NCBI RefSeq assembly: GCF_000829395.1
Contig: NZ_AP014680.1
Span: forward strand, 2,046,001 to 2,110,000
Direction of reading: 5' to 3'
DNA from: Paucilactobacillus hokkaidonensis JCM 18461
Lineage (GTDB): Bacteria > Bacillota > Bacilli > Lactobacillales > Lactobacillaceae
DNA: 64,000 nt
Shown piece after piece: positions 10,507-35,081 of the stretch. Below the pieces are notes generated by a model. It did no database searches. It had not been told where the DNA came from and worked only from the letters and a program-made list of their open reading frames with translations. The position numbers were made by a program, and so were the translations under genes. Position 1 is the stretch's first letter. Each line of letters begins with the position of its first letter.

Positions 10507-10516
10507 TTTTTCCTAA

Positions 10517-10635
10517 ACGTGCTCCGAAAAGGCAACGTCCTCCGCTTAGCCCGATTCAAGCAACGATTCCAAATGCAGGGATCATTACTTGAATCACGCT
10601 AATGCTCAGAAGTTAACCGCCTTTCGCCACACTCT
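10517..10635 (-). repeat. Palindromic element E2 (middle tandem copy)
   Basis: About 90% like E1 and E3 by eye, with a period of 128-129 bp. Small changes such as CCAAATGCAGGG in the loop weaken the apical pairing relative to its neighbours. Confidence 0.88.
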
Positions 10636-10645
10636 TTTTTCATAA

Positions 10646-10763
10646 ACGTGCTCTGAAAGGCAACGTCCTCCGCTTAGCCCGATTCAAGCAACGATCCCAA
10701 ATTCGGGGATCGTTGCTTGAATCATGCTAATGCTCGGAAGTTAACCGCCTTTCGCCACACTCT
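10646..10763 (-). repeat. Palindromic element E3, 8 bases after the kduI stop
   Basis: Same class as E1. The AGAGTGTGG terminus lies 8 bases after the TAA of kduI, so mRNA passing into kduD must cross three large hairpins. They could set the kduI:kduD transcript ratio. Confidence 0.88.
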
Positions 10764-10770
10764 TTTTGTA

Positions 10771-11616
10771 TTAACGTAATTCGTGCATGTCAACGGCGTC
10801 CATATCATCATATGTTTGGTTTTCACCACACATTGCCCAGATAAATGAGTAATTAGTAGTACCAACACCACAATGAACTGAGAAACTTGGGTTGACAACT
10901 GCTTGATCAGGTTCCAACCAAATATGTTTCGTGTTATCTGGTGTTCCCATGAAATGAGAAACTCGCGTATCTTTTGAACCAAATTCAGTATAAAGATATG
11001 TTTCCATCCGACGAGCATGTGTATGGGCTGGCATTGTATTCCATGAATTACCCGGTTCCAAAACGGTGTAACCCATTTGCAATTGACAAGTATCCATAAT
11101 TGAAGCATCAATATACTTGTGAATTGTCCGTTTGTTCATATGTGCTTGATCACCCATTGGCATTGCAATTGCATCTTTGTAAGAGAGCTTCTTACTTGGA
11201 TATGCTTTATGAGCTGGTGTAGAAACAACATAGAACTTAGCTGGTTTCTTAGCATCGTCTGATTCAAACACAACATGTTTTGTTCCCATGCTGATGTAAT
11301 AACCATCATGAGGTTCAATTTCTTGTTTGTCGCCATCAATAGTAACAGTTCCTTTACCACCAATATTGATGAATCCCATTTCACGGCGTTGCAAGAAGAA
11401 CTCAACACCTAATTCTTTACCTAGTTTAATTTCTAGTGGACCAGATACAGGTGTTACACCACCAAAAATCATCCGATCATTGTATGTGTAAGTTAACAAT
11501 ACATCGTCAGCACTGAAAATCTTTTCCATCAAGAATTCTTCGCGCATTTGATCTGTGCTGTAATGTTCAATATCCTTAGGACTATGAGCATATTTTGTTA
11601 CCATTTTAAATGACAT
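10771..11616 (-). CDS. kduI: 5-keto-4-deoxyuronate isomerase
   Basis: A cupin-fold isomerase converting 5-keto-4-deoxyuronate (from unsaturated uronates of pectin or glycosaminoglycans) to 2,5-diketo-3-deoxygluconate. Diagnostic stretches include RRELGF-type RREMGFINIGGKGTV, MPAHTHARRMETYLY with zinc-ligand His and Glu, HCGVGTTNYSFIWAMCGENQ, and the C-terminal DAVDMHELR. An upstream in-frame ATG at 11631 exists. GGAGG sits 8 bases before the ATG used here, giving 281 aa, close to the 278 aa of E. coli KduI. Confidence 0.92.
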   Translation of the reverse strand: MSFKMVTKYAHSPKDIEHYSTDQMREEFLMEKIFSADDVLLTYTYNDRMIFGGVTPVSGPLEIKLGKELGVEFFLQRREMGFINIGGKGTVTIDGDKQEIEPHDGYYISMGTKHVVFESDDAKKPAKFYVVSTPAHKAYPSKKLSYKDAIAMPMGDQAHMNKRTIHKYIDASIMDTCQLQMGYTVLEPGNSWNTMPAHTHARRMETYLYTEFGSKDTRVSHFMGTPDNTKHIWLEPDQAVVNPSFSVHCGVGTTNYSFIWAMCGENQTYDDMDAVDMHELR

Positions 11617-11631
11617 TACAAAAGCCTCCAT

Positions 11632-16992: not shown

Positions 16993-16995
16993 GCT

Positions 16996-17009
16996 TGAAT
17001 ACGCTTTCA
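16996..17009 (-). promoter_or_regulatory. cre box upstream of uxuB
   Basis: On the minus strand TGAAAGCGTATTCA matches 13 of 14 positions of the CcpA consensus. It adjoins the ATACTAGTAT operator. Confidence 0.6.
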
Positions 17010-17111
17010 GTTTATCACAAATCCACAAACTGTCAATGCTATTTTTACAAAAATGCGCTAACAACTAGCATTCCACTACCAGACACTTTCTTTATTTTCT
17101 TTTGGCTTACT

Positions 17112-17845: not shown

Positions 17846-17945
17846 TTTATTTTTATACAGTTTTTCTTTCAAAATATTTAAATTTATGTATTTTAGACAA
17901 AACTGATATACTTGTTATTGACATTATATCAAAATAGTTGTTAAA

Positions 17946-17959
17946 TGAAAGCGTTAACA
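17946..17959 (+). promoter_or_regulatory. Perfect cre box upstream of gluconokinase
   Basis: TGAAAGCGTTAACA matches all 14 positions of TGWAARCGNTWNCW, 57 bases before the start codon. Carbon catabolite repression by CcpA is expected. Confidence 0.75.
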
Positions 17960-18016
17960 GCTAAATCTAATCTTTTAAATACTTTTTTGATTAACATTAT
18001 AGGAGGTAATCGTTTT

Positions 18017-19555
18017 ATGGATTACGTAGTAGGAATTGATATTGGAACTACAAGTACGAAAGCCGTTTTATATACTTTGCACGGCGATATTAAAGGTTAT
18101 TCAAACCAACTCTATCCATTACTTCAGGACAAACCTGATATGGCAGAAGAGGACCCAGATGTTATTTTCAACGCCACTGTCACAGCATTGAGTGAAGTAG
18201 TTAAAAATGCTGATGGCCGTGTTCGGGCTGTTTCGTTTTCAACCCAGCAACACAGCCTGGTTGGACTGGATGCAGATCATAAACCATTGACCAACGTTAT
18301 CACATGGGCAGATAATCGTGCCGAAAAACAAGCGACTGAATTAGGCAAGAACGGTCAAGGAATGAAAATTTACAACAAGACCGGCTTACCGATTCATCCT
18401 ATGGGCCCTGTCTATAAACTGTTATGGTTAAAACAAGATGAAACTGAGCTCTTCAATAAAACCAGTTATTGGGTTGGAATTAAAGAATATGTTTTATGGC
18501 GTTTCTTCCATCAATTAAAAGAAGAAACTGCAATGGCAGCTACAACAGGTCTAATGAACATCTTCAAAATGGACTGGGACGAAGATATTATGAAATTCGT
18601 GGGTATCAAACGCGAACAGCTCCCTGAACTAGTTGATCCAAAAGATCAATTGTCTGGCATGGATCCTAAACTAGCAGATCAAATTGGTATTCCTGCAGAC
18701 ACACCATTTGTTATGGGTGCCACTGATGGTGCCTTGGCTGAAATTGGTTTAGGTGCCATTGGTAAAGGAGAAGTTGCTGTTACCATCGGAACCTCTGGCG
18801 CAGTTAGAACGTTTATTGATAAACCACAACTTGATCCCAAGGGGCGGACTTATTGTTACCCTGTTATGGACGGCAAATGGATCGTTGGTGGACCGGTTAA
18901 TAATGGAGGCATCGTCTTCCGTTGGGTTCGTGATAATTTGTTTGGTCCAGAAAAAGAAACTGCTAGAATGCTTAATATGGATCCATACGATTTATTGACG
19001 GATATCGCTAAAAAGGTGCCTGCTGGCTCAGATGGCTTAATTTTCCACCCATTTATCGGTGGTGAACGAGCACCAATTTGGAATGGAAATGCTCGGGGCT
19101 CGTTCTTTGGATTAACTCGAAATCATACTCGTGCTCACATGGTTAGAGCGGCACTTGAAGGAGTTGTTTATAACCTCTATACCGTGCAATTGGCGCTCCA
19201 AGAAGCAGTTGGTGAACCAACTTTAATCACGGCAACTGGTGGCTTTGCCCGTTCAGCTTTATGGCGCCAAATGTTGGCTGACATCTTCGAGCATCCAGTT
19301 ACTATTCCTGAAGCATTTGAAAGTGGTTGCTTGGGTGCTATGACTGTCGCACTTATGAGCATTGGCGAAGCAGACGACATGTCAGTTGTTAAAAAATTTA
19401 TTGGTAAACAAAATACCTATCAACCAGATCCAGCAAACTTCAAGAACTACCGTGATTTACTACCAATCTATCTAAATGTTGGTCGTAAATTAGAGGGAGA
19501 ATACGATAGCATCGCTGAATATCAACGACAACATCCAAATCCAGGTAATAAATAA
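18017..19555 (+). CDS. gntK: Gluconokinase (FGGY family)
   Basis: A 512-aa FGGY kinase phosphorylating gluconate to 6-phosphogluconate. The phosphate loop VGIDIGTTSTKAV is at residues 4-16. WADNRAE, GATDGALAEIGLG (catalytic Asp) and VTIGTSGAVRTF (ATP site) follow. A longer in-frame start at 17945 exists, but AGGAGGT lies just before the ATG used here, and the longer form would run through the cre box. Its product feeds either 6-phosphogluconate dehydrogenase in this window. Divergent from the GntR regulator. No gluconate permease is adjacent. Confidence 0.9.
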   Translation: MDYVVGIDIGTTSTKAVLYTLHGDIKGYSNQLYPLLQDKPDMAEEDPDVIFNATVTALSEVVKNADGRVRAVSFSTQQHSLVGLDADHKPLTNVITWADNRAEKQATELGKNGQGMKIYNKTGLPIHPMGPVYKLLWLKQDETELFNKTSYWVGIKEYVLWRFFHQLKEETAMAATTGLMNIFKMDWDEDIMKFVGIKREQLPELVDPKDQLSGMDPKLADQIGIPADTPFVMGATDGALAEIGLGAIGKGEVAVTIGTSGAVRTFIDKPQLDPKGRTYCYPVMDGKWIVGGPVNNGGIVFRWVRDNLFGPEKETARMLNMDPYDLLTDIAKKVPAGSDGLIFHPFIGGERAPIWNGNARGSFFGLTRNHTRAHMVRAALEGVVYNLYTVQLALQEAVGEPTLITATGGFARSALWRQMLADIFEHPVTIPEAFESGCLGAMTVALMSIGEADDMSVVKKFIGKQNTYQPDPANFKNYRDLLPIYLNVGRKLEGEYDSIAEYQRQHPNPGNK

Positions 19556-20980: not shown

Positions 20981-22198
20981 TTATATTTTTTTACCATTAA
21001 AAATTACTCCCTGATCATTTTTATGCTCAATATATTTTAAACTTGTGTTTATTCTATCAATTTCTAAACATGGTCTAAGATCATACACTACTTTAGATCC
21101 AACTGGCACCCTTAGATCTATATCCACATTTTCAAAGGTTATATCTTGGATGGCATTATCTACATTAGTATATAGTAAAATTCCATTTTCGGCATTGCAT
21201 TTGATGTTTTTAAACTGTATATTTTTTATCACTTGACCCGCTAAATCGGTATCTTTATTTCTGGGTAACAATGTTATAAAAATTGGTTCTCCGGATCCCC
21301 ACCATTCTTCGGTGAAATGCTTTGTTACAATATTTATATCTTCAAAAATAATATTTTTAGCACTACCTGGATCCCTTAACTGAAAGGCAAGCCCTCGATT
21401 CGAATCTTTAATTGATATTTTTTTAAAGTTACAATTTACAAAATTACCAAAACTACTGCTTCCAAATTTTATACCTGAGCTTTGACTTGTAAGCTGGCAG
21501 TTTTCAACCAATAAATTAGTACAATCTCCATATTGCTTTGTTTCTTCAGTACATTTAGAGCATATAGCATCATCCCCCGTTACAATTATGCAATTATGAA
21601 TAAACGTATTTTTACTCCTATCAATGTCAATTCCATCAGTATTTGGCATTCTTGATTCATTATAAATTTTGATATCATCAATTTCAGTATTAACACATCC
21701 AACCAAATGGATAGTCCAAAATGGTGCATCAGAAATGGTAACATTATTTATATAAATATTTTTACAATTTTCAAAGTAAATTGTCATTGGCCTCGGATAT
21801 TTATAGGACTTAAGATGAGGTGCCAATTTCTGTTCCGGAAAAATAAACTTTTGATAACTCCCAATTATTTTTCCAGCGCCCACTATTGAAATATGCGAAG
21901 AGTTTTTCGCATAAATTAGACTGCAAATTGGTGTATCATTTTTTAATAGTTCAAATGGTCCTTCCCGCTTGATATATTTGGATTCATTACCAGAGCCAAT
22001 CAAACGTGCACCTTTTTCGATACTTAAAGTTACATTATTCTCCATTACTATGCCATCAATAATATAATCCCCATTACCCGGAATTATAACAGTACCACCA
22101 CCGTTCTTAGAACATTCATTTATTGCATTTTGAATTAATTTAGTAGTACTCCCATTGAGATCCAGAAAATCCCTCTGATCTAAAATGTTAATTATCAT
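20981..22198 (-). CDS. Glycoside hydrolase family 28-like (polygalacturonase fold), cytoplasmic
   Basis: A protein of about 405 aa with a right-handed beta-helix and GH28 hallmarks. NTDGID (187-192, counted from the upstream ATG at 22201) and TGDDAI (208-213) hold the three catalytic Asp positions. The usual GHG is replaced by QSSG, and the RIK site reads RGLAF, so substrate binding probably differs from endo-polygalacturonase. No signal peptide, so it would act on imported oligosaccharides. Two adjacent ATGs follow GGGGAG; the second is better spaced. It is in line behind the lactonase and beta-glucuronidase genes. Confidence 0.78.
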   Translation of the reverse strand: MIINILDQRDFLDLNGSTTKLIQNAINECSKNGGGTVIIPGNGDYIIDGIVMENNVTLSIEKGARLIGSGNESKYIKREGPFELLKNDTPICSLIYAKNSSHISIVGAGKIIGSYQKFIFPEQKLAPHLKSYKYPRPMTIYFENCKNIYINNVTISDAPFWTIHLVGCVNTEIDDIKIYNESRMPNTDGIDIDRSKNTFIHNCIIVTGDDAICSKCTEETKQYGDCTNLLVENCQLTSQSSGIKFGSSSFGNFVNCNFKKISIKDSNRGLAFQLRDPGSAKNIIFEDINIVTKHFTEEWWGSGEPIFITLLPRNKDTDLAGQVIKNIQFKNIKCNAENGILLYTNVDNAIQDITFENVDIDLRVPVGSKVVYDLRPCLEIDRINTSLKYIEHKNDQGVIFNGKKI

Positions 22199-22235
22199 CA
22201 TGAGCTCCCCGTTTCTAATAAAATATTAATAAACT

Positions 22236-22282
22236 AATAATAGCGCTAACATTCATAATTGAACATCTGCGCTACTATTAGT
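22236..22282 (-). terminator. Hairpin between the lactonase and GH28 genes
   Basis: ACTAATAATAGCGC and GCGCTACTATTAGT form a long stem around a 20-base loop, with T-rich sequence after it on the minus strand. The left arm overlaps an imperfect cre-like box (22238-22251, 12 of 14). It may attenuate GH28 expression. Confidence 0.5.
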
Positions 22283-23320
22283 TTACTTTAGAGCAACTAT
22301 TGCTGTTGGTTCTGGAACCTTGAAATTATTATTAACCAATTCCAATAGGCCACTGGCCTTTTGCCTTTTAAATACACTTAAATTATCGGACTTTTGATTT
22401 GCCACCAATGCAAATCTATCGTCCAAACTAAACTTCAAATCTCTAGGAAAATCACCACCGCATTCAACATTTTGGATTAACTTCAAATATCCATGTTCAT
22501 GTATTTCAAAAACTGCAACCGAATTATATCCACGATTTGTTACATATAAGTTTTTAAAATCTTTTGAGATCCTAATTGCAGCTGCCCCATTATACCTATT
22601 CCACCAAGCAGGTATGGTATGTGTGATTTGAATTAGACCAAATATTCCACTTTTTTCGTCATACTTAAGTGTAGCAACATTACTACTTAGTTCTCCAACA
22701 ACATAGCTCACTTTTCTTTTTAAATCGAATCTAATATGTCTTGGGCCAAAACCCGCAGGTAGGGTAAATGTAGTTTTAAGTTCTAACCTGTTTTTATTTG
22801 AAATATCATAAATAAAAATTTTATCTAGCCCAAGATCACACACAACTACTCTACCCTCTGGTGTCAAATTAATAAAATGTGGGTGGGGCCCATCTTTTTG
22901 TTCTTTTTCTGGTCCCACCTCTCCAATATCATCAATACGATCCAATAATGTACAGCTACTCTGATTAACCCTATACATACTTAATTGATTGGCATGGTAA
23001 TTGGCAGTAAACAACCTGCGTGTATTCTTATCAAAAGAAATATATGCTCCTGAAATTGGTGCATCATGAAGATGGTACACAATTTTAGCCGGATTTTGAC
23101 TAACATCAAAAACCTTTATCCCACCGTTATTTAAAGAATACTGACTGCTATTGTCTATGCAGTAAATCAAATTATTGTTTCCCATGGCTAAATAAGTAGG
23201 ATTACCTGCGGTGCCCACTAGCTTTAACCTTGATGGTTCACCCGTATTTACATCAAAATCAAAAGAATAGATGCCTTTGCTTAGCCGCTTCGTATAAGTT
23301 CCAAGAAAAAACTTTTCCAA
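22283..23320 (-). CDS. Lactonase family protein (YbhE-type 6-phosphogluconolactonase-like)
   Basis: A 345-aa seven-bladed beta-propeller of the cytoplasmic lactonase family. Typical features are the start FFLGTYTKRLSKGIYSF, ANYHANQLSMY, DGPHPHFINLTPEG and DFPRDLKFSLDDRFALVANQ. The family hydrolyses 6-phosphogluconolactone in E. coli but other aldonolactones elsewhere. It sits between GH28 and beta-glucuronidase genes, which suggests an aldono- or uronolactone from a plant polymer. It could also serve zwf at 40 kb. Confidence 0.82.
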   Translation of the reverse strand: MEKFFLGTYTKRLSKGIYSFDFDVNTGEPSRLKLVGTAGNPTYLAMGNNNLIYCIDNSSQYSLNNGGIKVFDVSQNPAKIVYHLHDAPISGAYISFDKNTRRLFTANYHANQLSMYRVNQSSCTLLDRIDDIGEVGPEKEQKDGPHPHFINLTPEGRVVVCDLGLDKIFIYDISNKNRLELKTTFTLPAGFGPRHIRFDLKRKVSYVVGELSSNVATLKYDEKSGIFGLIQITHTIPAWWNRYNGAAAIRISKDFKNLYVTNRGYNSVAVFEIHEHGYLKLIQNVECGGDFPRDLKFSLDDRFALVANQKSDNLSVFKRQKASGLLELVNNNFKVPEPTAIVALK

Positions 23321-23363
23321 AAAATCATCACCTTAATGATATCCCATGACCTAGTTAAATTTA

Positions 23364-25181
23364 TTATTTCTTATAATCAAAATTTGGAATATTATTCCAT
23401 CGTTTAGAAAGGTATCTAGCAACCATCTTCGGCTCTCTAGATCTTGTAAATATTCCTTTTTTGTTACCTTGAACTCGATTAATCCCAAATTTAGTTTGAA
23501 AGTCAGCAAAATTCCATAATTGTTCACCCACAAAATTTGGAATTTCATCAAATACTTTACTGTTCATTTTATAATAATCTTCTTGGTATTCTTCGGAGAA
23601 CGGTTCATCATAAACACTATGCAAACCAGATATTGTATCAGCGCCATATTCTGTGTACATGATTGGCTTGCCAGGATACCTATCTTGCCACTCTAGTAAT
23701 TCATTACGGGTTTTATCCTCTGCTGTTTTTAAATCTCCATTTTGCATATACCACCCATAGTATCTATTCAATGCTATGACATCTACTAGATCTGTACACT
23801 TATCGGCTTCTGGTGTTGTCATCATTATTGCTACATAGGTACATGGCCTTTTTTGAGGATCTAATTTTCTAGCAAGTTTAAACAGTGGTTCAAAATACTC
23901 CTTAGCACCAGTTGAATAGTTAGCCGCTTCATTCGCAATAGACCACATTACAACACATGCATGATTTTTATCACGATCAATCATTTCTCTAATCACTTGT
24001 TGATGCGCTTTTTGTGTATTTAATTCTTTCCAAGTGTTATCTTCATACGAACTATTTACCATGGCCGATACATCAAAAGTAAATGACAACATTAATCCAA
24101 CTGCAGGAGTTTCATCTATAACTACAATTCCTTCTTGGTCACACAATCTCATCATTTCTTCAGAGTAAGGGTAGTGTGATGTTCTGAATGAATTTGCTCC
24201 CATTTTTTTCATTAAATTAAGATCTAAGACATTATAAGCTTCATTTAATCCCTTTCCATTAACGTATGTGTCTTCGTGTTTGCCAAATCCTTTAAAATAA
24301 AATGGCCGCTCATTAATCATAAATTTTCCATTTTTAGTTTCAACTTGTCGAACACCAAAAGGTTCTTCGTATACATCAATTACTCTACCATCTTTAATTC
24401 CACAAACTTTTGCTGTATACATGTATGAATTTAGTGGCTGCCATAAATTAACATTGTCTATTTTTGCTAACGCTTCGGTACCTGAACATTCACAAACAAT
24501 TTCTTTTTTTGCATCTAAAATATAAATTTTTACATCATCAAAAGAACCCACAGCTTTTGATGATATTTTGATATTAGCACTGTTGTTAGTAAAATTTATT
24601 TCTGGGGTAACCACAATATCATCAATATAGTCTTTAGGTGTTGAATATATTTTGACCGGTCGATGAATTCCAGCATAGTTGAAAAAGTCAAAATTTTCAT
24701 CAACATTGTATTCTTTATTACCATGTTTATCAGAAGTTTCAGAAAAATTTCCAACAGGTAATGTTGTAAAATCTAGTAAATTGCTGATCCTGACTGTAAC
24801 ACGATTACTACCCTCAATTAATTCTTTATTAATTTCGGCTTCAAACGGAGTGAATCCGCCTTTGTGATGAGCTACTTCATTCCCATTTACATAGACCCAA
24901 GCTTCATGAGTAACAGAACCAAAACGTAGAACTAATCTTTCGTTTCTTAAAATCCTGGCTATATTAAATTCTTTTTCATACCAAAAATAACCATTGTAAT
25001 TTCTAATCTTTGCATCAGCAGTTTGGTCGTTAAATGATGCTGGAACAGCCATCACATCGCTTGTCTCCAATGGATGTGATACATCTATATTTTTTTCTGA
25101 ATTTTCTACCATGAATTTCCAAATACCATCTAAATTTAAAATTGTTCGACTATCTGTTGAAATTGGATATAACAACTTCAT
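23364..25181 (-). CDS. uidA: Beta-glucuronidase (GH2)
   Basis: A GH2 enzyme of 605 aa releasing D-glucuronate from beta-glucuronides. A sugar-binding domain, an immunoglobulin-like domain and a TIM barrel follow in order. Catalytic residues (counted from the longer start at 25193) are Glu422 in NEAAN and Glu515 in YTEYGAD. The NKKGIFTR segment (577-584) supplies the Asn-x-Lys pair that binds the glucuronate carboxylate and separates this enzyme from beta-galactosidases. No signal peptide. Neither start has an ideal RBS; GGAG lies only two bases before the ATG chosen. First gene of the set with the lactonase and GH28. Confidence 0.92.
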   Translation of the reverse strand: MKLLYPISTDSRTILNLDGIWKFMVENSEKNIDVSHPLETSDVMAVPASFNDQTADAKIRNYNGYFWYEKEFNIARILRNERLVLRFGSVTHEAWVYVNGNEVAHHKGGFTPFEAEINKELIEGSNRVTVRISNLLDFTTLPVGNFSETSDKHGNKEYNVDENFDFFNYAGIHRPVKIYSTPKDYIDDIVVTPEINFTNNSANIKISSKAVGSFDDVKIYILDAKKEIVCECSGTEALAKIDNVNLWQPLNSYMYTAKVCGIKDGRVIDVYEEPFGVRQVETKNGKFMINERPFYFKGFGKHEDTYVNGKGLNEAYNVLDLNLMKKMGANSFRTSHYPYSEEMMRLCDQEGIVVIDETPAVGLMLSFTFDVSAMVNSSYEDNTWKELNTQKAHQQVIREMIDRDKNHACVVMWSIANEAANYSTGAKEYFEPLFKLARKLDPQKRPCTYVAIMMTTPEADKCTDLVDVIALNRYYGWYMQNGDLKTAEDKTRNELLEWQDRYPGKPIMYTEYGADTISGLHSVYDEPFSEEYQEDYYKMNSKVFDEIPNFVGEQLWNFADFQTKFGINRVQGNKKGIFTRSREPKMVARYLSKRWNNIPNFDYKK

Positions 25182-25203
25182 CACTCCATTCATATAGGTT
25201 AGT

Positions 25204-25230
25204 AGTGTACACTTAATGTAAGCGTTATCA
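25204..25230. promoter_or_regulatory. Palindrome and perfect cre box between uidA and the AraC gene
   Basis: AGTGTACACT (25204-25213) is a perfect palindrome. TGTAAGCGTTATCA (25217-25230) matches all 14 positions of the cre consensus. Both lie just upstream of the beta-glucuronidase gene. Confidence 0.7.
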
Positions 25231-25356
25231 TCATTTTAAATTATTTCTATAACTATCATTTATACTATTTTTACTATTATTGAAATATTTATACTCACAA
25301 AGTATAATAAAATGCATAGTTCAATTAAGCTAGGGTATTAAGGAGTACATTCGAAT

Positions 25357-26538
25357 ATGACAGAGGAATTAATATCTATCGTTAAATCTTTAAGTGTAAT
25401 TTCTAAATTAAAAATAAAAATATTTGATAAAGCTAATGATCTAATATTTGAATCTAATAGCAAAATCAGCACAACTAATCTAAAAATAAGAAAATCAGTC
25501 TTGGTAAGTATCTCCAAAACTGCGGAAACTTCTTCTAAAACAAATTGTTATTGCATACAAATAGATAATGCGAGTTTCCTAATATCAGGATTATGGAATA
25601 ATGAAATTTTTCAGGGAATTCTATCCTGCGGACCATTTTTTACTAGCATACCTGTGACAAATAATTTGGATACTTCATTAAAGTTATATTATCAATCACT
25701 ACCTATACTTAACAATTTAGAACTTAATAGTTTAGCAACTTTGATTGTGAACATAACTTCCGGTCGACCGACCAAACCTAACATTATAAAAACCAGTACA
25801 GACTTCTCTTTTAACGTTGCTGATAATCAGTCAATTTCTAGTTACAATGAAGATATTATTAATTCTAGATATTCCAATCAGCGATCCATAATGACTGCAA
25901 TTTCCACTGGCAATAAAGAACTAGCTGACTCATTAATTGGAGATGCTGCTGCTTTTTTATCACCATTTTCGCAAAGGACTCCAAACAGACCTCTTCGTTC
26001 TGCTAAAAATATTGCTTTTGTTTTCAACACAATGTGTAGAATTGCAAGCGAACACAGCGGTGTGGCTCCAATCTATCTACACTTAATTTCTGAAAAATAC
26101 GCTTTAATAATTGAACGTTCATCAACTCTAGCTCAACTTGCAAAAAGCATTCATGCAATGTCCGACGATTACTGCGATCTAGTTGTTAAACTTAATAATA
26201 ACCGGTATAGTGCAAAAATAAAAAAATCGATTTCTTTTATTAATCTAAGATACTCTGAACCAATTAAGTTAAACGACATTGCAATTTATTCAAATACAAA
26301 CCCTGCTTACCTATCGAGGAAGTTCAAACAAGAAACTGGACAGAGTGTAATTGGTTTCTTAAATCGCACAAAAATTAATAAAGCACAAAATCTTATAAAA
26401 AATACCGATAATTCTATTACTGATGTAAGTATCCTAGTTGGATTTAATAATTTAACATATTTTTGTAAAGTTTTTAAAAATATAACTGGTACAACCCCTT
26501 CCAGTTTTCAAAAAAACTTAGGACTATTTAAACAATAA
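25357..26538 (+). CDS. AraC-family transcriptional regulator
   Basis: A 393-aa regulator. The C-terminal third carries two AraC helix-turn-helix motifs: IKLNDIAIYSNTNPAYLSRKFK, then ITDVSILVGFNNLTYFCKVFK with the closing TGTTPSSF. The N-terminal 280 residues form a sensor-like region I cannot assign with confidence; a CGPF segment near residue 90 recalls PocR-type sensory domains. It is divergent from uidA-lactonase-GH28 and is their likely activator. RBS AAGGAG precedes ATG. Confidence 0.85.
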   Translation: MTEELISIVKSLSVISKLKIKIFDKANDLIFESNSKISTTNLKIRKSVLVSISKTAETSSKTNCYCIQIDNASFLISGLWNNEIFQGILSCGPFFTSIPVTNNLDTSLKLYYQSLPILNNLELNSLATLIVNITSGRPTKPNIIKTSTDFSFNVADNQSISSYNEDIINSRYSNQRSIMTAISTGNKELADSLIGDAAAFLSPFSQRTPNRPLRSAKNIAFVFNTMCRIASEHSGVAPIYLHLISEKYALIIERSSTLAQLAKSIHAMSDDYCDLVVKLNNNRYSAKIKKSISFINLRYSEPIKLNDIAIYSNTNPAYLSRKFKQETGQSVIGFLNRTKINKAQNLIKNTDNSITDVSILVGFNNLTYFCKVFKNITGTTPSSFQKNLGLFKQ

Positions 26539-26561
26539 TATTGAAAATTCAGAAATTAAAA

Positions 26562-26613
26562 AATAGTGTCAGTTACAACAGAATTTATAATTCCTGTTAT
26601 AACTGACACTATT
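26562..26613. terminator. Bidirectional terminator
   Basis: AATAGTGTCAGTTA-c-AACAG pairs with CTGTT-a-TAACTGACACTATT around a 12-base loop, between the convergent AraC and aldose epimerase genes. Confidence 0.88.
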
Positions 26614-26627
26614 AATTATGGCTTTCT

Positions 26628-27509
26628 TCACTTAAGCGTAATCTGATACCCAAGTGTTTTTGATTCACCTGCATCCAAGTCAGTATTAGCCTCTTTAGTG
26701 AGCAATTCGCTCTGTCGTCCACTAATATCTGGTAACCCCTGGAATGGTTCAATACACAAGAATGGTGCGTCTGCACCTTCCTTAGTCCATAAACAAACAT
26801 AACGAAAATCAGTTAAAGATAATTCGATACTATGTTTAGACTTTGCTGAACTTAGTTTGACCCCGGTAATCCCGTCATTTTCAACAATTACTAACCCATC
26901 AGCAAACATGTCATAATTTAAATTGATGTTGCTTTTGTTAGCAGCTGAAATAGGAATCACTTTACCATCACGAAATGGTGCTGGTGTTTTAACAATTTCA
27001 AATTGTTTCAAGTCTAAATTGCTTGGACTGAATTCTAGTTTGTAATCTGTAAATTTACCATCGCCGTTGATTGGAACATTAAATGCTGGGTGAGATCCAA
27101 GGGAAAAGCTTAGTTTCTTATCGTCTAAATTTTCTACTTTAAAGTTAAAATTCAGCCCTTCTGCAGAAAGCGTGAACGTAATCGTTAATCTAAAACTAAA
27201 TGGATAGTACTTCTGTGTTGTTTGATTATCCGTTAACGATAACACCAGCTTTGAGCCACTATTTTCTTCAACAGAAAAAGTTTCTTCCGAAACAAATCCA
27301 TGTTGTGGCATTTCATAAGTTTTACCCTCAAACGTATATGCGTCGCCTTCTGAACGACCAATCGCAGGGAAAAGTACTGGTGCATGTTTGGGCCATAAAT
27401 CATTATTCCAAATGTAATCAAAATTACCGTCATTATTAAACAGATGGGTTAATTGAGCGCCATGTTCATCAATTTGCGCTTTAAATTGTGCATTTTCAAT
27501 AGTTTGCAT
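26628..27509 (-). CDS. Aldose 1-epimerase family protein (LacX-like)
   Basis: A 293-aa galactose-mutarotase-like beta-sandwich protein that interconverts anomers of free or phosphorylated aldoses. Stretches such as AQLTHLFNNDG, PVLFPAIGRSEGDAY, PQHGFV (with the His), LGSHPAFNVPI and LCIEPFQGLPD fit the LacX/YeaD subgroup. RBS GGAGGAG precedes ATG. It follows uxaC on the same strand beyond a terminator, so it may convert anomers of glucuronate released by UidA; this is inference. Confidence 0.87.
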   Translation of the reverse strand: MQTIENAQFKAQIDEHGAQLTHLFNNDGNFDYIWNNDLWPKHAPVLFPAIGRSEGDAYTFEGKTYEMPQHGFVSEETFSVEENSGSKLVLSLTDNQTTQKYYPFSFRLTITFTLSAEGLNFNFKVENLDDKKLSFSLGSHPAFNVPINGDGKFTDYKLEFSPSNLDLKQFEIVKTPAPFRDGKVIPISAANKSNINLNYDMFADGLVIVENDGITGVKLSSAKSKHSIELSLTDFRYVCLWTKEGADAPFLCIEPFQGLPDISGRQSELLTKEANTDLDAGESKTLGYQITLK

Positions 27510-27526
27510 ATTTTTCTCCTCCAGTG

Positions 27527-27562
27527 AAAAAAGTCAGCCGAAAAATTCCGACTGACTTTTTA
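27527..27562 (-). terminator. Terminator after uxaC
   Basis: AAAAGTCAG-c-CG / CG-a-CTGACTTTT with T runs at both ends separates uxaC from the aldose epimerase gene. Confidence 0.8.
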
Positions 27563-27601
27563 TATCTCAACCAGTCTAATCTATATCATTGTCTAATCCG
27601 A

Positions 27602-29029
27602 CTAATCTTTATCAAAAAATCCAAAGTAACTGTGAGCATTATTATATGAAATGTCTTCAACAATTTTACCAAGGTACTCTTCATCATCAGGTACTTGGCC
27701 ACGTTGTGCTAATGATCCAATATAATCACATAGTACCCGGCGGAAGTATTCATGACGTGGATATGATAAGAAACTACGTGAGTCAGTCAACATTCCAACA
27801 AAGTTTGCTAACAAACTCTGTTCTGCCATTACTCGTAACTGTTCTTGCATTCCTTCACGCGTATCGTTAAACCACCAAGCACATCCCAGTTGCATTTTTT
27901 GCGTAACCCCACCGCCATAGAAGTCACCCATACCAGTAGCTAACTGCATCCAATCATTAGGATTCAATGAATAGAGCATTGTCCGTGGAATATTGTCTTC
28001 ATTTTGCATGTCAGTTAACAATTCCATAATTTGAGCTGCAATATCTGGTTGTGTCCCCATGGAATCAAATCCAGCATCTGCACCTATCTTTTTGAACATT
28101 GGTTTATTAGCATTCCGAGTTGCATTCATATGATACTGCATCGTCCAGTCAAACTTCTTGTTTAATCGCATTAATACCTCGATCAAACCAGTTGCGTATG
28201 CATCAATGTCATGCGCAGTTAATTCTTCATTGTTTTGTCCCTTAACCAAAATTTGGTTTAATTCAGCTTCTGGCACTTTCACAAAGTGGAATGAATTTAG
28301 ACCATGATCCGAAAGTCGACCACCCAAACTAGCAAAGAATTCAAACCGTTGTTCAAAGGCAGCAGTAAGTCCGTCAAAGTCCTTAATATCAACCCCAGCA
28401 GCATTACCTAATTCCTTTAAGTAATCTCCAAATGAATCTGCAGCAATATTGAATGCCTTATCAGGACGCATTGCAGGTAAGACCTTAAATCCATTCTCTT
28501 TTTCTTCTTTTTTCAATAAAACATGATATTTAAGATCTGAAGCAGGATCATCTGTTGTACAAACAACTTTTACATTTGAATTACGAATTAAACTACGTGG
28601 TTTAAAATCTTCTGTAGCCAATAATTCATTTGCTTTATCCCAAACTTGTTTAACATTTTTAGTAGTGAATGGTGCATCGATACCAAAGAATCGTTGTAGT
28701 TCTAGATGTGTCCACTCATAAAGTGGGTTTCCAATGGCTTTTTCGATTGTGCCTGCCCACGCAACTAATTTCTGATATTCGTCACCATCACCAGTAATTA
28801 ATTCTTCGTCAACACCATTAGCACGCATCAAACGCCATTTATAATGGTCGCCAAACGATCCATCATTGATCCAAATTCTGGTTAAATTAGGATAATTTTT
28901 ATTTTCGTAAATTTCTTGTGGATTTAAATGACAGTGAAAATCGATAATTGGCATTTTACTGGCATGATCGTGAAACAACTTTTTACCCATTTCATTTGTT
29001 AATAGAAAATCTTTGTCTAATAAACTCAT
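27602..29029 (-). CDS. uxaC: Glucuronate isomerase
   Basis: A 475-aa enzyme of the uronate isomerase family (amidohydrolase superfamily), converting D-glucuronate to D-fructuronate and D-galacturonate to D-tagaturonate. The metal site motif IIDFHCHLNPQEIYENK is near residue 30. CTTDDPASDLKYH, TMQYHMNATRN and MLTDSRSFLSYPRHEYFRR are diagnostic. It would receive glucuronate from UidA and pass fructuronate to UxuB. It ends the symporter-GH31-uxaC run. Confidence 0.93.
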   Translation of the reverse strand: MSLLDKDFLLTNEMGKKLFHDHASKMPIIDFHCHLNPQEIYENKNYPNLTRIWINDGSFGDHYKWRLMRANGVDEELITGDGDEYQKLVAWAGTIEKAIGNPLYEWTHLELQRFFGIDAPFTTKNVKQVWDKANELLATEDFKPRSLIRNSNVKVVCTTDDPASDLKYHVLLKKEEKENGFKVLPAMRPDKAFNIAADSFGDYLKELGNAAGVDIKDFDGLTAAFEQRFEFFASLGGRLSDHGLNSFHFVKVPEAELNQILVKGQNNEELTAHDIDAYATGLIEVLMRLNKKFDWTMQYHMNATRNANKPMFKKIGADAGFDSMGTQPDIAAQIMELLTDMQNEDNIPRTMLYSLNPNDWMQLATGMGDFYGGGVTQKMQLGCAWWFNDTREGMQEQLRVMAEQSLLANFVGMLTDSRSFLSYPRHEYFRRVLCDYIGSLAQRGQVPDDEEYLGKIVEDISYNNAHSYFGFFDKD

Positions 29030-29092
29030 TAAAAAAATCTCCTTTTATTAATTATATTTTTAAGGTTATTAATACCGTACTAAAATTATATC

Positions 29093-31588
29093 TTACAAAG
29101 AAATTAAATCCTTAATATCAAAATTAATTTGTACTTTGTAAACATCAATATTTTGGTTAGCATATCTAACTGTAACTTGTTTTGTTTCACCGTTGAAATA
29201 CCAGCCCTCACTTGCGTTTTTAAATTTATCAAAATTTAAAAATTGTTCAAGTGGTGCATCCTCTATTTCAATGCTGAAAGGTGCTACTTGAGGACAACAT
29301 ACTGACAACACAATACTTTTAACTTTTGTCTTGTATTTACCAGTGCGTTTAACATCAATTGAAACTCCATTTTTTGAAGGATTAACATTAAACTTAGTCT
29401 CTAAAGATAAACCTTTCTTATAGTCATTCGATTTTCCATCATCTTCATAAACTGTGAATTCAGACTTTTCACTTGGTTCAATCAATAAATCTAACTTTTC
29501 AATATCTTGATTGTGCAGATTCATTAATTTAGGACTACGTGGAATAATTCCACCACTTTTTAAGAACATGGGAATGGATCCTAAATCAACCGAAATATTG
29601 ATTGTTTGGCCACCTTTATAATACTTAGAAGTATTAATCTCATACCAGTTTGAGCCTTCTGGTAAATATATCTCTTTTTTATTCTCACCTTTTTCTAGCA
29701 CATTGGCTACAAGTAAAGATGATCCCAACATAAATTCAAAACTTTCTTCAGCAACATTAGGATCATTTTGAAATTCATACACAAGTGGTCTCATAATTGG
29801 TGATCCAACAGTTGCTGCTTCATGCAATAATGAGTAAAAATAAGGGATAAGAGTATATCTAAGCTGTATTGCATCACGAATGTATTTCGTATATTTAGGA
29901 TACATCCATGGTTCCGTTACCGTATTATCATCGTTGGATGAGTGAATTGAGAAACGAGGTTGGAAAATTCCATTTTGAACCCATCTGACAAAAAGTTCTG
30001 GTTCTGGTGCTGGTCCATCAAATCCACCAATATCACAACCCTGATTAGCTACACCTGACAATCCCATTCCTAGAACAGTTGGGATATTATATTTTAAATT
30101 ATTCCAGCTTGTACGATTATCTCCTGCCCATGTTTGAGCATACCTTTGAATACCAGCAAATCCGGCTCTATTAACTAAATATGGTCGTTCATTAGGAGCA
30201 TAATCATTTAGAGCATCCTTAGCGGTCTTCGCCATCATCGTTGACATAATTGGCTTGACAGCGCCAATCTGTTTATTCAATCCTTCCGCTTCAACAAGGG
30301 CACTATTATCATTTATTTCATATTCGTTGTTATCATTCCAAATTGAAGTAATTCCTAATGATAATAGTGAATCACTAAGATGCTTCGTCCAAGAGTCTCT
30401 GCCCGCTGAACTGGTAAAATCAACAAAATGGGCATCACCACCCCAATACTGATCTATCTGAGAATTTTTCCCATCAGGGCTCTTTACAAAAGCACCATTA
30501 TCCTTAAATTCATTAGTAAGCTGATGTGTGACTAGCATCCCAGGCTTAATGTTAGGAGCCAATAAAACTCCCTTTTCTTTAAGCTTATCCACAAACTTTT
30601 GTGGATTAGGGAACCTTTTTTTGTTCCAGTTAAAAACATAACGTTTACCGTCAGCCCCACTTGTATAACCAGAAGAAAGAAAGAATCCATCACATGGTAT
30701 TTCATTTTTTTTGCAAGTATCAACAAAATCAAGGATTGCTTCATCCGCATTTTTCTCTAATTCTGTATAATACATTGTTGATCCCATATACCCAAATGAT
30801 GGTAATGGCATCATTGCACTTTTACCGGTTAAATCCGTGTAATGTTCGACCACATCTTTGATGGTTGGGCCACCAATGAAAAAGACGTCCAACTCGCCAC
30901 CATCGCACTCAAAGTAACTAAAGCGTTTCCAATAGTTACTGTGTTCGCTATCTAAATCAAAAACTGAATCATATGAATTATTGTAGAATAATCCACTCGC
31001 AACTTGTTTTTCACCATCAAAATCAATGTAAAATGGAATCATTTTATACAATGGATCTGATTTTGCAGCATTCCAACCTAAAGAATCTGTATTATGCATT
31101 CTCATCCGACGTTTAAATTTATTTAACTCACCAGATTTTTCACCAAATCCATAAAAATAATCATGATCACCCATTGAACTATAGTGATATGAACGACCTA
31201 AATCATCTTGTAAAAATGATCTTTTGGGGAGATCTTGATGTACAACTTTTCCATTTTGATCAGTAATTTCGAAATAGAAAGGATCTTCGAAAATGCTTAA
31301 CTTATATAATCCATTTGAGACAGAATAACCAAAATCTGTTTTTATCAATTCAATAGGAATTGGACTAACTTTTGTACGTTCATCACCAAGTAATTTATCT
31401 GTTTTATCATCCCAAGCAGTTTTAGTTAACGCATATGATTCTTCAGGAGCAAACTTATCATCAAATGTACCCCGCATTCTGATAATATTTTTATCTAAAA
31501 GATAAACACGAAACTTTGCTCCATCGGTAATTAGCTCTAAAAAGTCCTTGTTATTAACAGCTTTTAACAGTTTTGTACTTCTTTTCAT
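29093..31588 (-). CDS. Glycoside hydrolase family 31 (alpha-glucosidase/alpha-xylosidase-like)
   Basis: A GH31 enzyme of 831 aa without a signal peptide. An N-terminal beta-sandwich (to about 260) leads into a TIM barrel. The nucleophile is Asp425 in IWNDNNE and the acid/base Asp496 in WAGDN (numbering from the TTG at 31606). C-terminal beta domains follow. The ATG used has GAGG six bases upstream. The family covers alpha-glucosidases, alpha-xylosidases and alpha-galactosidases; specificity is not decided. Position between a GPH symporter and uxaC suggests a uronate-bearing plant oligosaccharide. Confidence 0.88.
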   Translation of the reverse strand: MKRSTKLLKAVNNKDFLELITDGAKFRVYLLDKNIIRMRGTFDDKFAPEESYALTKTAWDDKTDKLLGDERTKVSPIPIELIKTDFGYSVSNGLYKLSIFEDPFYFEITDQNGKVVHQDLPKRSFLQDDLGRSYHYSSMGDHDYFYGFGEKSGELNKFKRRMRMHNTDSLGWNAAKSDPLYKMIPFYIDFDGEKQVASGLFYNNSYDSVFDLDSEHSNYWKRFSYFECDGGELDVFFIGGPTIKDVVEHYTDLTGKSAMMPLPSFGYMGSTMYYTELEKNADEAILDFVDTCKKNEIPCDGFFLSSGYTSGADGKRYVFNWNKKRFPNPQKFVDKLKEKGVLLAPNIKPGMLVTHQLTNEFKDNGAFVKSPDGKNSQIDQYWGGDAHFVDFTSSAGRDSWTKHLSDSLLSLGITSIWNDNNEYEINDNSALVEAEGLNKQIGAVKPIMSTMMAKTAKDALNDYAPNERPYLVNRAGFAGIQRYAQTWAGDNRTSWNNLKYNIPTVLGMGLSGVANQGCDIGGFDGPAPEPELFVRWVQNGIFQPRFSIHSSNDDNTVTEPWMYPKYTKYIRDAIQLRYTLIPYFYSLLHEAATVGSPIMRPLVYEFQNDPNVAEESFEFMLGSSLLVANVLEKGENKKEIYLPEGSNWYEINTSKYYKGGQTINISVDLGSIPMFLKSGGIIPRSPKLMNLHNQDIEKLDLLIEPSEKSEFTVYEDDGKSNDYKKGLSLETKFNVNPSKNGVSIDVKRTGKYKTKVKSIVLSVCCPQVAPFSIEIEDAPLEQFLNFDKFKNASEGWYFNGETKQVTVRYANQNIDVYKVQINFDIKDLISL

Positions 31589-31672
31589 AAACGTCCTCGC
31601 CTTCAATCATATTGACAACACATACATTCATAAAAAAGATCCTACTATAAATTATAGGACCTCTCTTCATAA

Positions 31673-33106
31673 CTATTTACCTTCAACCTCTTCTTCAGCA
31701 TTCTCATTATGAATTGCTGCTAGTTTAGCTGCATTTTCATTAACTTTCTTCTTACTCAAAGGATAGAAGAACAATAAAACAAGCGCTGCAAGTGCCAAAC
31801 ACACAGTTGGAATTCCAGTTGCAAGAGTATAAATACGGTCTACAACTGCAGTTGTTTGGATTGCTCCACCACCGGTAGATGATTTATACCCGATGAACGT
31901 TAACATAAATCCACCAAAGCCGCCAGCAATTGCTTGTGCAACCTTTCGAGCAAAGGAATTAACTCCATACACAATTCCATCTTCACGAACACCAGTTATA
32001 ACTTCGTGATTATCAATAACATCTGTAATAAATGCCCAAACCATCAAGTTAAATACCCCGGCACCTAATGATCCAAAGAATAACATTACAAGATAAAATC
32101 CAGCACTATGCGTATGAATAATCATTAATGCACCATAAATGATAGCACCAAAAATCAAGGCCACAATTGAACACTCTTTCCGGCCAAACTTGCGTGTCAT
32201 CCAATTACTAAATGGAGCCAATAAAAGGACAGTAGCAAAGTTAAAGATTAAAGCAATTGACATTGCACCTTTATTTCTAAAGTAATCATTAAATAAATAT
32301 GAAATCATCGTACCAGAAAGGTTTTGGTTAATAACCAGAATTAAATCAACAATAACCAAGATAAGCAAAGCCTTATTTTTGAGCATTCCTTTAACCAAGT
32401 CGCCCATTGGTACTTTTGCACTTTTTTCAGTTTGAATACGTTCAGTGGTTAAATGAGTTGTTAATTCATAACATCCCCATCCTAAAATGGCACAGACAAC
32501 TACCACCCAAAAGAATCGGTTCCCAGAAATTTTTTGGGTTGCACCAACGTAGATAAACATTGGAATAATATAACTAGTAATAGCACTCCCTAAAGCAGAA
32601 CCCATTGCACGGAATGTTGACAATGATGTTTTGTCATCAGGATCACCACTAATAGCTGAGGCCATTGATCCATAAGGGATATTAACTGAAGAATAAAAGA
32701 TCCCCCATGCCAAGTAAGTAACAAATACATATACAAGTCTAACTGGTAATGCAAAATCTTTAACGAACGGAACGAACAGTAAAACTAGTGCTATAAGTAA
32801 AGGATATTTCATCCGGTTAATCCAAGGCTTAAATCGTCCGATTTTGTGTAGCTTACTGTTATCAACCATTCTACCGATAGTGATATCAGCAAACGCATCA
32901 ACGAACCGTGCTAATATAAACAGGACCCCAACTTGAGCACCGGTTAATCCCAAAACATTGGTATAGAAGATCATTAAGAATGAATTAACAACGTTAAAAG
33001 AAAAGTTATTTCCAATGTCTCCAAACATATAACCAATCTTATCTTTAATACCAAAAGGATCTGCAGAAACTGCAATTGTCTTTTGTGTCTTATTTTTCTT
33101 ATCCAA
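31673..33106 (-). CDS. GPH-family glycoside/hexuronide:cation symporter
   Basis: A 477-aa major-facilitator protein of the glycoside-pentoside-hexuronide family (UidB, XylP, MelB relatives) with twelve spans. Diagnostic parts are FGIKDKIGYMFGDIGNNFSF at the N-terminus, RFVDAFADITIGRMVDNS after span 2, and GAGVFNLMVWAFITDVIDNHEVITGVREDGIVY in the second half. Given uidA, uxaC and GH31 near it, a beta-glucuronide or uronate oligosaccharide is the likely cargo. First gene of its operon, with a perfect cre box upstream. Confidence 0.9.
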   Translation of the reverse strand: MDKKNKTQKTIAVSADPFGIKDKIGYMFGDIGNNFSFNVVNSFLMIFYTNVLGLTGAQVGVLFILARFVDAFADITIGRMVDNSKLHKIGRFKPWINRMKYPLLIALVLLFVPFVKDFALPVRLVYVFVTYLAWGIFYSSVNIPYGSMASAISGDPDDKTSLSTFRAMGSALGSAITSYIIPMFIYVGATQKISGNRFFWVVVVCAILGWGCYELTTHLTTERIQTEKSAKVPMGDLVKGMLKNKALLILVIVDLILVINQNLSGTMISYLFNDYFRNKGAMSIALIFNFATVLLLAPFSNWMTRKFGRKECSIVALIFGAIIYGALMIIHTHSAGFYLVMLFFGSLGAGVFNLMVWAFITDVIDNHEVITGVREDGIVYGVNSFARKVAQAIAGGFGGFMLTFIGYKSSTGGGAIQTTAVVDRIYTLATGIPTVCLALAALVLLFFYPLSKKKVNENAAKLAAIHNENAEEEVEGK

Positions 33107-33506
33107 CTAACTCCACTCCCTAAAATTAGAATTTAAAATAACATTGCAAAAAATAGCGCTTCCATAAAAACAAAAGATAGTTTATCTACATAAAATTCCT
33201 CCTCACTAAAACTGATACACCAGTTGTGTACAGGATAACACCAAAAGATAACGCTTTCAATAGAATTTTGCCAATTAAAAAAATTTATTACTTTTTTCAC
33301 TTGTTGCTAATTTATTTTGGTTAAAGGTAGCCTTGCCTCATCTTTAGCTTGTTAACTGTTCTACACGCATCAGAACAAACGATTATTATAAATCATTTTC
33401 TCGGTGAAATAGGGTTGCTTGCTTTACTTTTTGAGTTATAATGAAAGCGAATTCATTGTGTAACTAACATACTAGAGAACTTTAGCATCACTAGTTAACT
33501 GATTAT
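33107..33506. promoter_or_regulatory. Divergent control region of the symporter operon and GH30
   Basis: No gene seen. Leftward: a perfect cre box, TGAAAGCGTTATCT on the minus strand (33246-33259), and the inverted repeat TACAC-N5-GTGTA (33216-33230). Rightward: a promoter with TTGCTT (33415-33420), 16 bases, TATAAT (33437-33442), overlapped by a near-perfect cre box TGAAAGCGAATTCA (33442-33455, 13 of 14). CcpA bound there would block the GH30 promoter. Confidence 0.75.
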
Positions 33507-33530
33507 ATGAATATACAAGGAGGAGCTCAC

Positions 33531-35081
33531 ATGCAAATTACTAACGAAAATGACAGTTTAAATGAATTTTGGACATCTACATCAGGTGACCTATCACAGA
33601 AACGTGAACAAGTAGATATCCCAAAATATCAACGAACTACAGGTAACGCAAGTGAAATAATTATTGATCCATCTGTAAAAAAACAAGATTGGCTAGGTGC
33701 AGGTGCTGCAATCACAGATTCTGCTGCATCCCTGATTTGGGATGTTTTAGATAAAAAACAACGATCTTCATTACTTCAAGAACTTTTTGATCCGGCTCAA
33801 GGTGGATTTTCTTCAATTCGTGTTCCTCTGGGTTCGTGTGATTTTCAAAGTCAAGACTACTACACTTACGATGACGTACCCTTTGGAGAACACGATAATA
33901 AGCTTGAAAAATTTTCAATTGGTACGGGTACACCTGGTAGGCCTGATGCCACGAAGGATTTAAAACACATTGTCCCTGTAATTCAAGAAATTTTAAAAAT
34001 AAATCCTGCAGTTAAAATCATTGCATCACCATGGTCCTCGCCAGCTTGGATGAAAAACTCCGGACACTTAACCTTTGGAGGGCACTTGCGTTTTGGTGAA
34101 TATACAGGAAATGGTTTTACCGAAGAAAATCGATTTGAGTATATTTACGCTCAGTACTTTGTTCGCTATATAGAAGAATATAGAAAATTAGGAATACCAA
34201 TATACGGAGTAACCATTCAAAACGAACCATCCAACGCTGCACACTGGCCAGCTATGATTTGGACCTTACCTCAATTAGCTAGCTTTGGATACAAATATCT
34301 ACGTCCCGCATTGAACCATTCATTTCCAGACACAAAAATGTATATTCTTGATGATAGTTTTCATGCCTTAGATAAACCTATAACAGAAGAAGTTACACGC
34401 GATCAGGCAACAGCTTTTGATGGTATGGCTGTCCACACATATACTGGTCCTTATGACAATTTATACAATGCAAACCGAGCATTTCCCAACTGGTCACTAA
34501 TTATGACCGAACGTCGTTGTATGATGGAAGAAACACCAGAAAATGCTGCTCACATCATGTTTGGTATTATCGGGAACTGGCTTGTACGTAATGGACTAAA
34601 CATGATAACTCTTTGGAATCTAGCTTTGGACGAACGCGGTTTGCCAAACGCTGCTGATTCAACCGGCAGACGCGGAGTTGTCACTATTGATCATGCAACT
34701 GGTAAAATAAAGAGAAACTTAGAATATTATATGCTCAGGAATTTTGGACAAGATGTAACTGTTGGCTCAAAAGTGATTGGATCCAGTAACTATACTATTG
34801 ATGGCTACACTGGCGGGCTTGGTTCAGTTGCTTTTCAAGCTCCAGATGGTTCTATTTCTGCTCACATTTATAATCCAACTGGTCAACCCTTAAATGCTGC
34901 AATCACAATAAATGGATTAGGAAGTACGTGGCAAGTTGTTACTGTGCCAGCTTGGGGTACGGTTACCCTTCATAAATCTACAGCTAAATTAAATACATCC
35001 TCCATACCAAAAGACGATGAATTTAAATTGAATCCAACTCCTGCAAACAGATCTGATTTTGCTCCGGGAGAAAATAAATAA
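33531..35081 (+). CDS. Glycoside hydrolase family 30 (glucosylceramidase-like)
   Basis: A 516-aa GH30 enzyme with a TIM barrel followed by a beta domain. GAGAAITDSAA near the start and ASPWSSPAWMK are family signatures. Catalytic residues (numbered from an upstream ATG at 33507) are Glu240 in IQNEPSN and Glu335 in MTERR. LALDERGLPN closes the barrel. AAGGAGGAG precedes the ATG used. No signal peptide, so it acts inside the cell, probably as a beta-glucosidase, beta-xylosidase or beta-glucuronidase on imported oligosaccharides. Divergent from the symporter operon and cre-controlled. Confidence 0.88.
   Translation: MQITNENDSLNEFWTSTSGDLSQKREQVDIPKYQRTTGNASEIIIDPSVKKQDWLGAGAAITDSAASLIWDVLDKKQRSSLLQELFDPAQGGFSSIRVPLGSCDFQSQDYYTYDDVPFGEHDNKLEKFSIGTGTPGRPDATKDLKHIVPVIQEILKINPAVKIIASPWSSPAWMKNSGHLTFGGHLRFGEYTGNGFTEENRFEYIYAQYFVRYIEEYRKLGIPIYGVTIQNEPSNAAHWPAMIWTLPQLASFGYKYLRPALNHSFPDTKMYILDDSFHALDKPITEEVTRDQATAFDGMAVHTYTGPYDNLYNANRAFPNWSLIMTERRCMMEETPENAAHIMFGIIGNWLVRNGLNMITLWNLALDERGLPNAADSTGRRGVVTIDHATGKIKRNLEYYMLRNFGQDVTVGSKVIGSSNYTIDGYTGGLGSVAFQAPDGSISAHIYNPTGQPLNAAITINGLGSTWQVVTVPAWGTVTLHKSTAKLNTSSIPKDDEFKLNPTPANRSDFAPGENK

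Follow-up and report, generated by a model that had tools for sequence, protein, structure and literature searches.

A putative hexuronoside gene island of Paucilactobacillus hokkaidonensis and a GH31 clade proposed to act on alpha-glucuronosyl-glycerol

Genes and cre sites of the island

The window, that is, the whole 64,000-nucleotide stretch of Paucilactobacillus hokkaidonensis JCM 18461 (2.40 Mb assembly, 3 contigs) analysed here, carries at 20981-35081 the genes for GH28 (20981..22201, minus strand; PF00295), a lactonase (22283..23320, minus), GH2 (uidA; 23364..25193, minus), an AraC-family regulator divergent from uidA (25357..26538, plus; PF12833, PF00165), an aldose 1-epimerase (26628..27509, minus; PF01263), glucuronate isomerase (uxaC; 27602..29029, minus), GH31 (29093..31606, minus), a GPH-family symporter (31673..33106, minus) and GH30 (33507..35081, plus; PF02055), in this order. 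The likely start of GH30 is 33531, after a Shine-Dalgarno-like run. An earlier sequence-only reading had placed GH2, GH31, GH30, the lactonase, uxaC, the symporter and the AraC regulator within 22283-35081, and all of them were found there. The GH28 gene that it placed in the same span is real and lies to the left of it, and the epimerase was absent from that reading. The four glycosidases were said to lack signal peptides, and indeed none of their translations, inspected by eye, has a hydrophobic signal-like N-terminus.

To the left of GH28 are genes for gluconokinase, a GntR regulator, a UxuB-like dehydrogenase, a 2-hydroxyacid dehydrogenase, kduI, kduD, a kdgT-like permease, a kinase presumed to be kdgK, and kdgA. 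The FGGY gluconokinase (17945..19555, plus; TIGR01314, 674 bits, cut-off 649), the kduD and kduI pair (9551..11631, minus; PRK06935, 451 bits, cut-off 369; PRK00924, 397 bits, cut-off 250), the KDPG/KHG aldolase gene kdgA (PRK06552, 302 bits, cut-off 238), which shares 6813..8423 (minus) with the presumed kdgK, and uxaC (PRK02925, 592 bits, cut-off 387; PF02614, 676 bits) all score above the curated thresholds. The dehydrogenase at 15288..16934 (minus) is of the mannitol-dehydrogenase type and fructuronate reductase-like, at 127 bits against PRK15037 (cut-off 603) and 130 bits against a D-arabinitol dehydrogenase model, also below cut-off; relatives of it are present in 24 of the 80 best of 586 GH31 loci (see below). 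Similarly, the best model for the presumed kdgK is IolC (181 bits) and the next is KDG kinase (149 bits), both below cut-off. Because uxuA (a single copy outside the island, at G000:C1:777505) and a second uxaC are encoded elsewhere in the genome, the route from glucuronate to KDPG is complete on paper when UxuB and KdgK, which score below the curated cut-offs, are counted in.

GH2 is a UidA-type beta-glucuronidase. It scores 886 bits against PRK10150 (cut-off 544), bears GH2 domains, and retains both catalytic Glu residues, Glu422 (NEA) and Glu515 (TEYG), and the Asn-x-Lys carboxylate motif (N577-K-K579) of beta-glucuronidases. The island resembles uidR-uidA-uidB-uidC of E. coli in that its GH2 is 47% identical to UidA and its symporter is closest to UidB among five GPH references (31% identity), but the symporter gene adjoins GH31 rather than uidA, and the regulator beside uidA belongs to the AraC family. 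The symporter is a GPH protein by score (TIGR00792, 303 bits, cut-off 231) and falls short of the UidB model (PRK09848, 251 bits, cut-off 528). GH30 is best matched by the endo-1,6-beta-glucanase BT3312 model (GH30_3) with 193 bits, far below the cut-off of 700, and has orthologues of 65-79% identity in seven of ten Lactobacillaceae genomes, the others giving no match (two) or a distant match only (one). LcGUS30 of Lactobacillus brevis subsp. coagulans is described as a beta-glucuronidase of GH30 subfamily 9 (Sakurama et al., via PMC11893618 and PMC8453022), and GH30_9 averages 30.1% identity to GH30_3 (PMC8453022; PMC11893618). Our GH30 is likewise a Lactobacillus enzyme near but outside GH30_3, so that, by analogy with this description, it is probably an LcGUS30-type beta-glucuronidase. 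GH28 is galacturonidase-like and may act in exo mode; it scores 266 bits against the polygalacturonase PglB model (cut-off 600), and its solved relatives bear the names pectate lyase and exo-poly-alpha-galacturonosidase. The lactonase is a 7-bladed, 6-phosphogluconolactonase-like protein (PF10282, 325 bits) with 212 and 107 bits against 6-phosphogluconolactonase models, each below cut-off.

We searched the 64 kb window with the cre consensus WTGNNARCGNWWWCAW. Three perfect matches occur at two places, on both strands at 25216..25231 in the uidA/araC divergent promoter region and at 33441..33456 (plus) upstream of GH30, against 0.22 expected, and none of 100 shuffles reached three; as consensus matches, they thus exceed chance. 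Allowing one mismatch gave 18 matches against 9.33 expected (1 of 100 shuffles as high), including sites upstream of the symporter (33245..33260), GH28 (22237..22252) and the uxuB-like gene (16995..17010, minus) as well as a site at 17945, where the listed gntK ORF starts; the match to the gluconokinase model begins downstream of it, at residue 27. The perfect cre box formerly reported before uidA therefore stands, and the ranking given for the symporter (perfect) and GH30 (near-perfect) is reversed with our consensus, though another consensus may rank them differently. The catabolite control proposed on that basis is plausible.

The GH31 protein and its clade

The GH31 protein has 837 aa, or 831 aa from the ATG at 31588. 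It bears Pfam GH31 domains and the catalytic nucleophile and acid/base, Asp419 and Asp490 (ATG numbering), which are kept in all 89 rows of its clade. Neutral-sugar GH31 enzymes have a pocket-loop Asp that contacts the sugar at its O4/O6 side. This position (305) is Asp in 40 of 40 control GH31s, but the 89 clade rows have Ser (77) or Ala (12), so that the clade departs from neutral alpha-glucosidases and alpha-xylosidases here. The best NCBIfam model is the alpha-glucosidase MalA, at 346 bits, below its cut-off of 800. The nearest sequences are neutral-sugar GH31s such as the dextranase FjDex31A, Agd31B and glucosidase II, and the predicted model (pLDDT 91.3) has a fold closest to FjDex31A, Agd31B and alpha-glucosidases. 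The model scores Z 37-38 with sulfoquinovosidases, on par with glucosidase II. The predicted fold does not decide specificity. With FjDex31A, glucosidase II and MalA, the protein shares the fold, the GH31 domains and the catalytic Asp pair; it differs from them in the Ser/Ala at the pocket position and in the hexuronate and glycerol context of its clade.

Some assignments were rejected. A YicI-type alpha-xylosidase does not fit the score against PRK10658 (267 bits, cut-off 606) or the separate placement on the tree. A sulfoquinovosidase is rejected on residues: the sulfonate site of YihQ consists of Gln288, Arg301, Trp304 and Tyr508, letters which we confirmed in the YihQ sequence, and only the Arg has an aligned counterpart, Gln288, Trp304 and Tyr508 not being shared; a separate YihQ-type enzyme is encoded elsewhere in the same genome. 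The counterpart itself, Arg316 (GKRY), was considered as a carboxylate marker and dropped, because Arg is also present in 20 of 20 alpha-glucosidase controls and is therefore not diagnostic; glucosidase II also carries GKRY.

Across species genomes, this GH31 has at least 586 confirmed relatives, and the best 80 loci among them were analysed, a sample leaning to close kin; the closest named relatives among the matches listed are from Paucilactobacillus suebicus (80%) and P. vaccinostercus (76%). The controls were 20 alpha-glucosidase-type GH31s (of 41 matches listed) and 20 YicI-type GH31s (of 40) from genomes of the same class, their taxa being partly different, with two loci in one genome and four cut by contig ends. 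Uronate genes (uxaC, uxuA or uxuB) are present in 34 of the 80 best clade loci versus 0/20 alpha-glucosidase-type and 1/20 YicI-type loci among these listed matches. GlpK is present in 16 of these 80 and GlpK together with GlpD in 11, versus none of the 40 control loci for either. TRAP importers occur in 15 of the 80 best loci, and the symporter gene adjoins GH31 in 20 (77 of the 80 have a clustered GH31 ORF); neither uronate genes nor GlpK with GlpD were found in 36 of the 80, where some contigs are short. In the window, a GlpK gene lies 2.3 kb past GH30, with two other genes between, and one query for a GlpD homologue in the genome, run without a positive control, found none. In a random sample across the phylum, GH31 was present in 2 of 398 genomes, too few for context statistics.

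The linkage to uxaC is also visible at the genome level. At E <= 1e-200 for GH31 and E <= 1e-50 for uxaC, GH31 is present in 17 and uxaC in 51 of 251 Lactobacillaceae genomes, and all 17 GH31-bearing genomes carry uxaC (p 1.5e-13, kinship ignored), with the two starts at most 12 kb apart in 14 of them; one of the 17 (G645) has an in-frame stop in GH31. The alpha-glucosidase-type GH31 of the same genome, taken as a control, is present in 48 genomes, 18 with uxaC, also above expectation (p 0.0016), which suggests that kinship or genome size adds to the signal.

In a tree built by a quick method, the 89 clade rows and the window protein fall into a single group (SH-aLRT 99), separate from the YihQ, YicI and alpha-glucosidase rows. 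Outside Lactobacillaceae, importers of the TRAP or ABC type often accompany GH31, together with uronate genes in some loci and glycerol genes in others. The two contexts require four changes on the tree (minimum 2, shuffled mean 12.8, 0/200 shuffles as low) and are thus strongly clustered by lineage. The glycerol context is found at least twice on the tree, in a Paenibacillus branch and in a separate Bacillaceae branch, each beside uronate-linked kin. The Paenibacillus locus L029 has the order ABC-glpK-GH31-glpD-like. Among Bacillaceae sisters at 61-67% identity, Halobacillus (L082; TRAP-GH31-uxaC-uxuA-SDR) has uronate genes, Gracilibacillus (L079; TRAP-GH31-MIP channel-glpK-glpD-like-dhaK) has glycerol genes, and Aquibacillus (L077) has both, with uxaC (cut off) and an SDR gene resembling mannonate oxidoreductase upstream and glpK/glpD-like genes downstream of GH31; the Halobacillus protein is 61% identical to the other two.

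A few clade members stand out. One locus without uronate or glycerol markers (L042) has a GH88 gene directly upstream of GH31, GH88 being a family of unsaturated glucuronyl hydrolases. At 6218-9876 of this locus, a protein of about 850 aa without a Pfam hit (tested in L042) precedes the GH88-family gene and GH31; its cluster is also present in L036, L045, L048, L050, L055 and L078, and it is possibly an uncharacterised uronate-related enzyme. Moreover, 12 clade rows (L032, L035, L037, L038, L043, L057-L060, L062, L067 and L073) have a divergent loop (LASGY...NLRY). These proteins are mostly beside or near another clade GH31, the pair in L043 being 49% identical, and perhaps serve a second uronoside.

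Proposed substrate, alternatives and related systems

The region from 6.8 to 35 kb mostly groups known kinds of genes, and the new part is the GH31 assignment. With slightly better than even confidence, we read the region as a hexuronoside island whose GH31 is an alpha-glucuronidase for alpha-glucuronosyl-glycerol. Anionic glycosides would enter the cytoplasm by the GPH symporter, the proposed importer of the GH31 substrate, and meet four cytoplasmic hydrolases, with GH2 and probably GH30 acting on beta-glucuronides, GH28 on galacturonides and GH31 on the alpha-glucuronide. The epimerase would mutarotate the hexuronate and UxaC would isomerise it; reduction by the UxuB-like enzyme and dehydration by UxuA would follow, and KdgK and KdgA would finish the route, the island being probably under catabolite control. 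GH31 would split alpha-D-glucuronosyl-glycerol, the deacylated headgroup of glucuronosyl-diacylglycerol, into glucuronate and glycerol. Since both uronate and glycerol genes neighbour the clade, a single substrate yielding both is the simplest, which points to glucuronosyl-glycerol. The breakdown of uronic-acid glycosides inside the cell, already proposed by the sequence-only reading, is supported as a cytoplasmic glucuronide system.

That reading went further and assumed a single branched oligosaccharide or plant glycoside bearing glucuronic acid, imported intact and needing GH2, GH28, GH30 and GH31 jointly, which we consider quite unlikely. Among the 26 Lactobacillaceae loci within the best 80 of 586 (L019, L021, L023 and L026 being short contigs), the commonest GH31 partners are the symporter (20), uxaC (19) and uxuB (16); GH2, GH28 and GH30 are all present in five loci, two of Paucilactobacillus and three of Limosilactobacillus, while ten have one of them and eleven have none, so that the parts look modular. 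The five full sets still allow, in some species, a substrate common to these enzymes, and gene sets of this kind occur in other named species, so the set is not unique. However, GH2 is of the UidA type, which works without a partner glycosidase, and GH30 is probably a beta-glucuronidase as well, so that the uronidases seem to act in parallel and to supply a single pathway.

The other alternatives concern GH31 itself. It is unlikely, in our estimate, that GH31 works as an alpha-glucosidase on alpha-glucosyl-glycerol or alpha-glucosyl-glucuronate, or that the clade switches substrate by lineage, with the uronate genes neighbouring it for that or other reasons. The dextranase and alpha-glucosidases as nearest solved relatives and the MalA match, even below its cut-off, fit an alpha-glucosidase, glucosylglycerol is a solute of halophiles, and the lineage clustering of contexts makes a change of substrate between lineages possible. 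On the other hand, this explanation has to accommodate the uxaC linkage in several lineages with 17/17 co-occurrence, the loss of a pocket Asp kept in every control, and TRAP importers, which are typical of organic acids, in a part of the 80 best loci. An alpha-glucuronidase for another aglycone, such as xylan aldouronic acids or the glucuronosyl-inositol of plant sphingolipids, would explain the uronate linkage equally, and the Halanaerobium locus L078, which encodes downstream a TIM-barrel protein resembling xylose isomerase and an oxidoreductase of the GFO/IDH/MocA type, is in its favour; given that glpK/glpD-like genes adjoin GH31 on two branches, we regard it as rather improbable.

Our preferred reading, alpha-glucuronosyl-glycerol, has a parallel in the E. 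coli genes yihO/yihP-yihQ-yihR-yihS, which likewise combine GPH, GH31, a mutarotase and an isomerase. YihQ is a cytoplasmic GH31 sulfoquinovosidase whose substrate is an anionic alpha-glycoside of glycerol. The epimerase of the island has a yihR-like position and is weakly similar to YihR (22% over 107 aa). The window GH31 differs from YihQ in sequence (24% identity over 458 aa) and in the sulfonate-site residues, and the downstream genes of the island serve hexuronate, not sulfoglycolysis.

The known alpha-glucuronidase families are GH4, GH67 and GH115. Glucuronosyl-diacylglycerol is an acidic, phosphorus-free membrane lipid, and phosphate-starved plants make it. We tentatively suggest, with less than even confidence, that the clade represents the first alpha-glucuronidase within GH31 and opens a widespread, so far undescribed bacterial route for recycling glucuronosyl-glycerol, parallel to sulfoquinovosyl-glycerol catabolism, and that this lactobacillus has both. 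Among the matches listed from titles and abstract openings of the open-access literature, there was no GH31 alpha-glucuronidase or glucuronosyl-glycerol catabolism, which does not imply their absence. If the suggestion is true, the name of a GH31 clade of several phyla, for which alpha-glucosidase and alpha-xylosidase models are at present the closest, is wrong, and the fate of glucuronosyl-diacylglycerol in bacteria gets its first enzyme along with candidate transporters and an operon open to testing. This would also account for why uronidases of different families stand side by side in some lactobacilli.

Just right of the window, another locus (L093; G000:C1:2109001-2129000, 821-8847) encodes a YihQ-type GH31 (54% to YihQ), a DUF4867/SftX-family protein and, below cut-off, a fructose-6-phosphate-aldolase/transaldolase-like protein; inspection by eye adds an aldehyde dehydrogenase, a transporter of the GPH type and one more ORF. 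This locus resembles the sulfo-SFT pathway. Elsewhere in the window, a 454-aa ORF at 47590-48954 looks by eye like an ISLre2/UPF0236 transposase, and the adjoining ORFs at 45296-46743 likewise look by eye like an AbiEii/AbiEi toxin-antitoxin pair.
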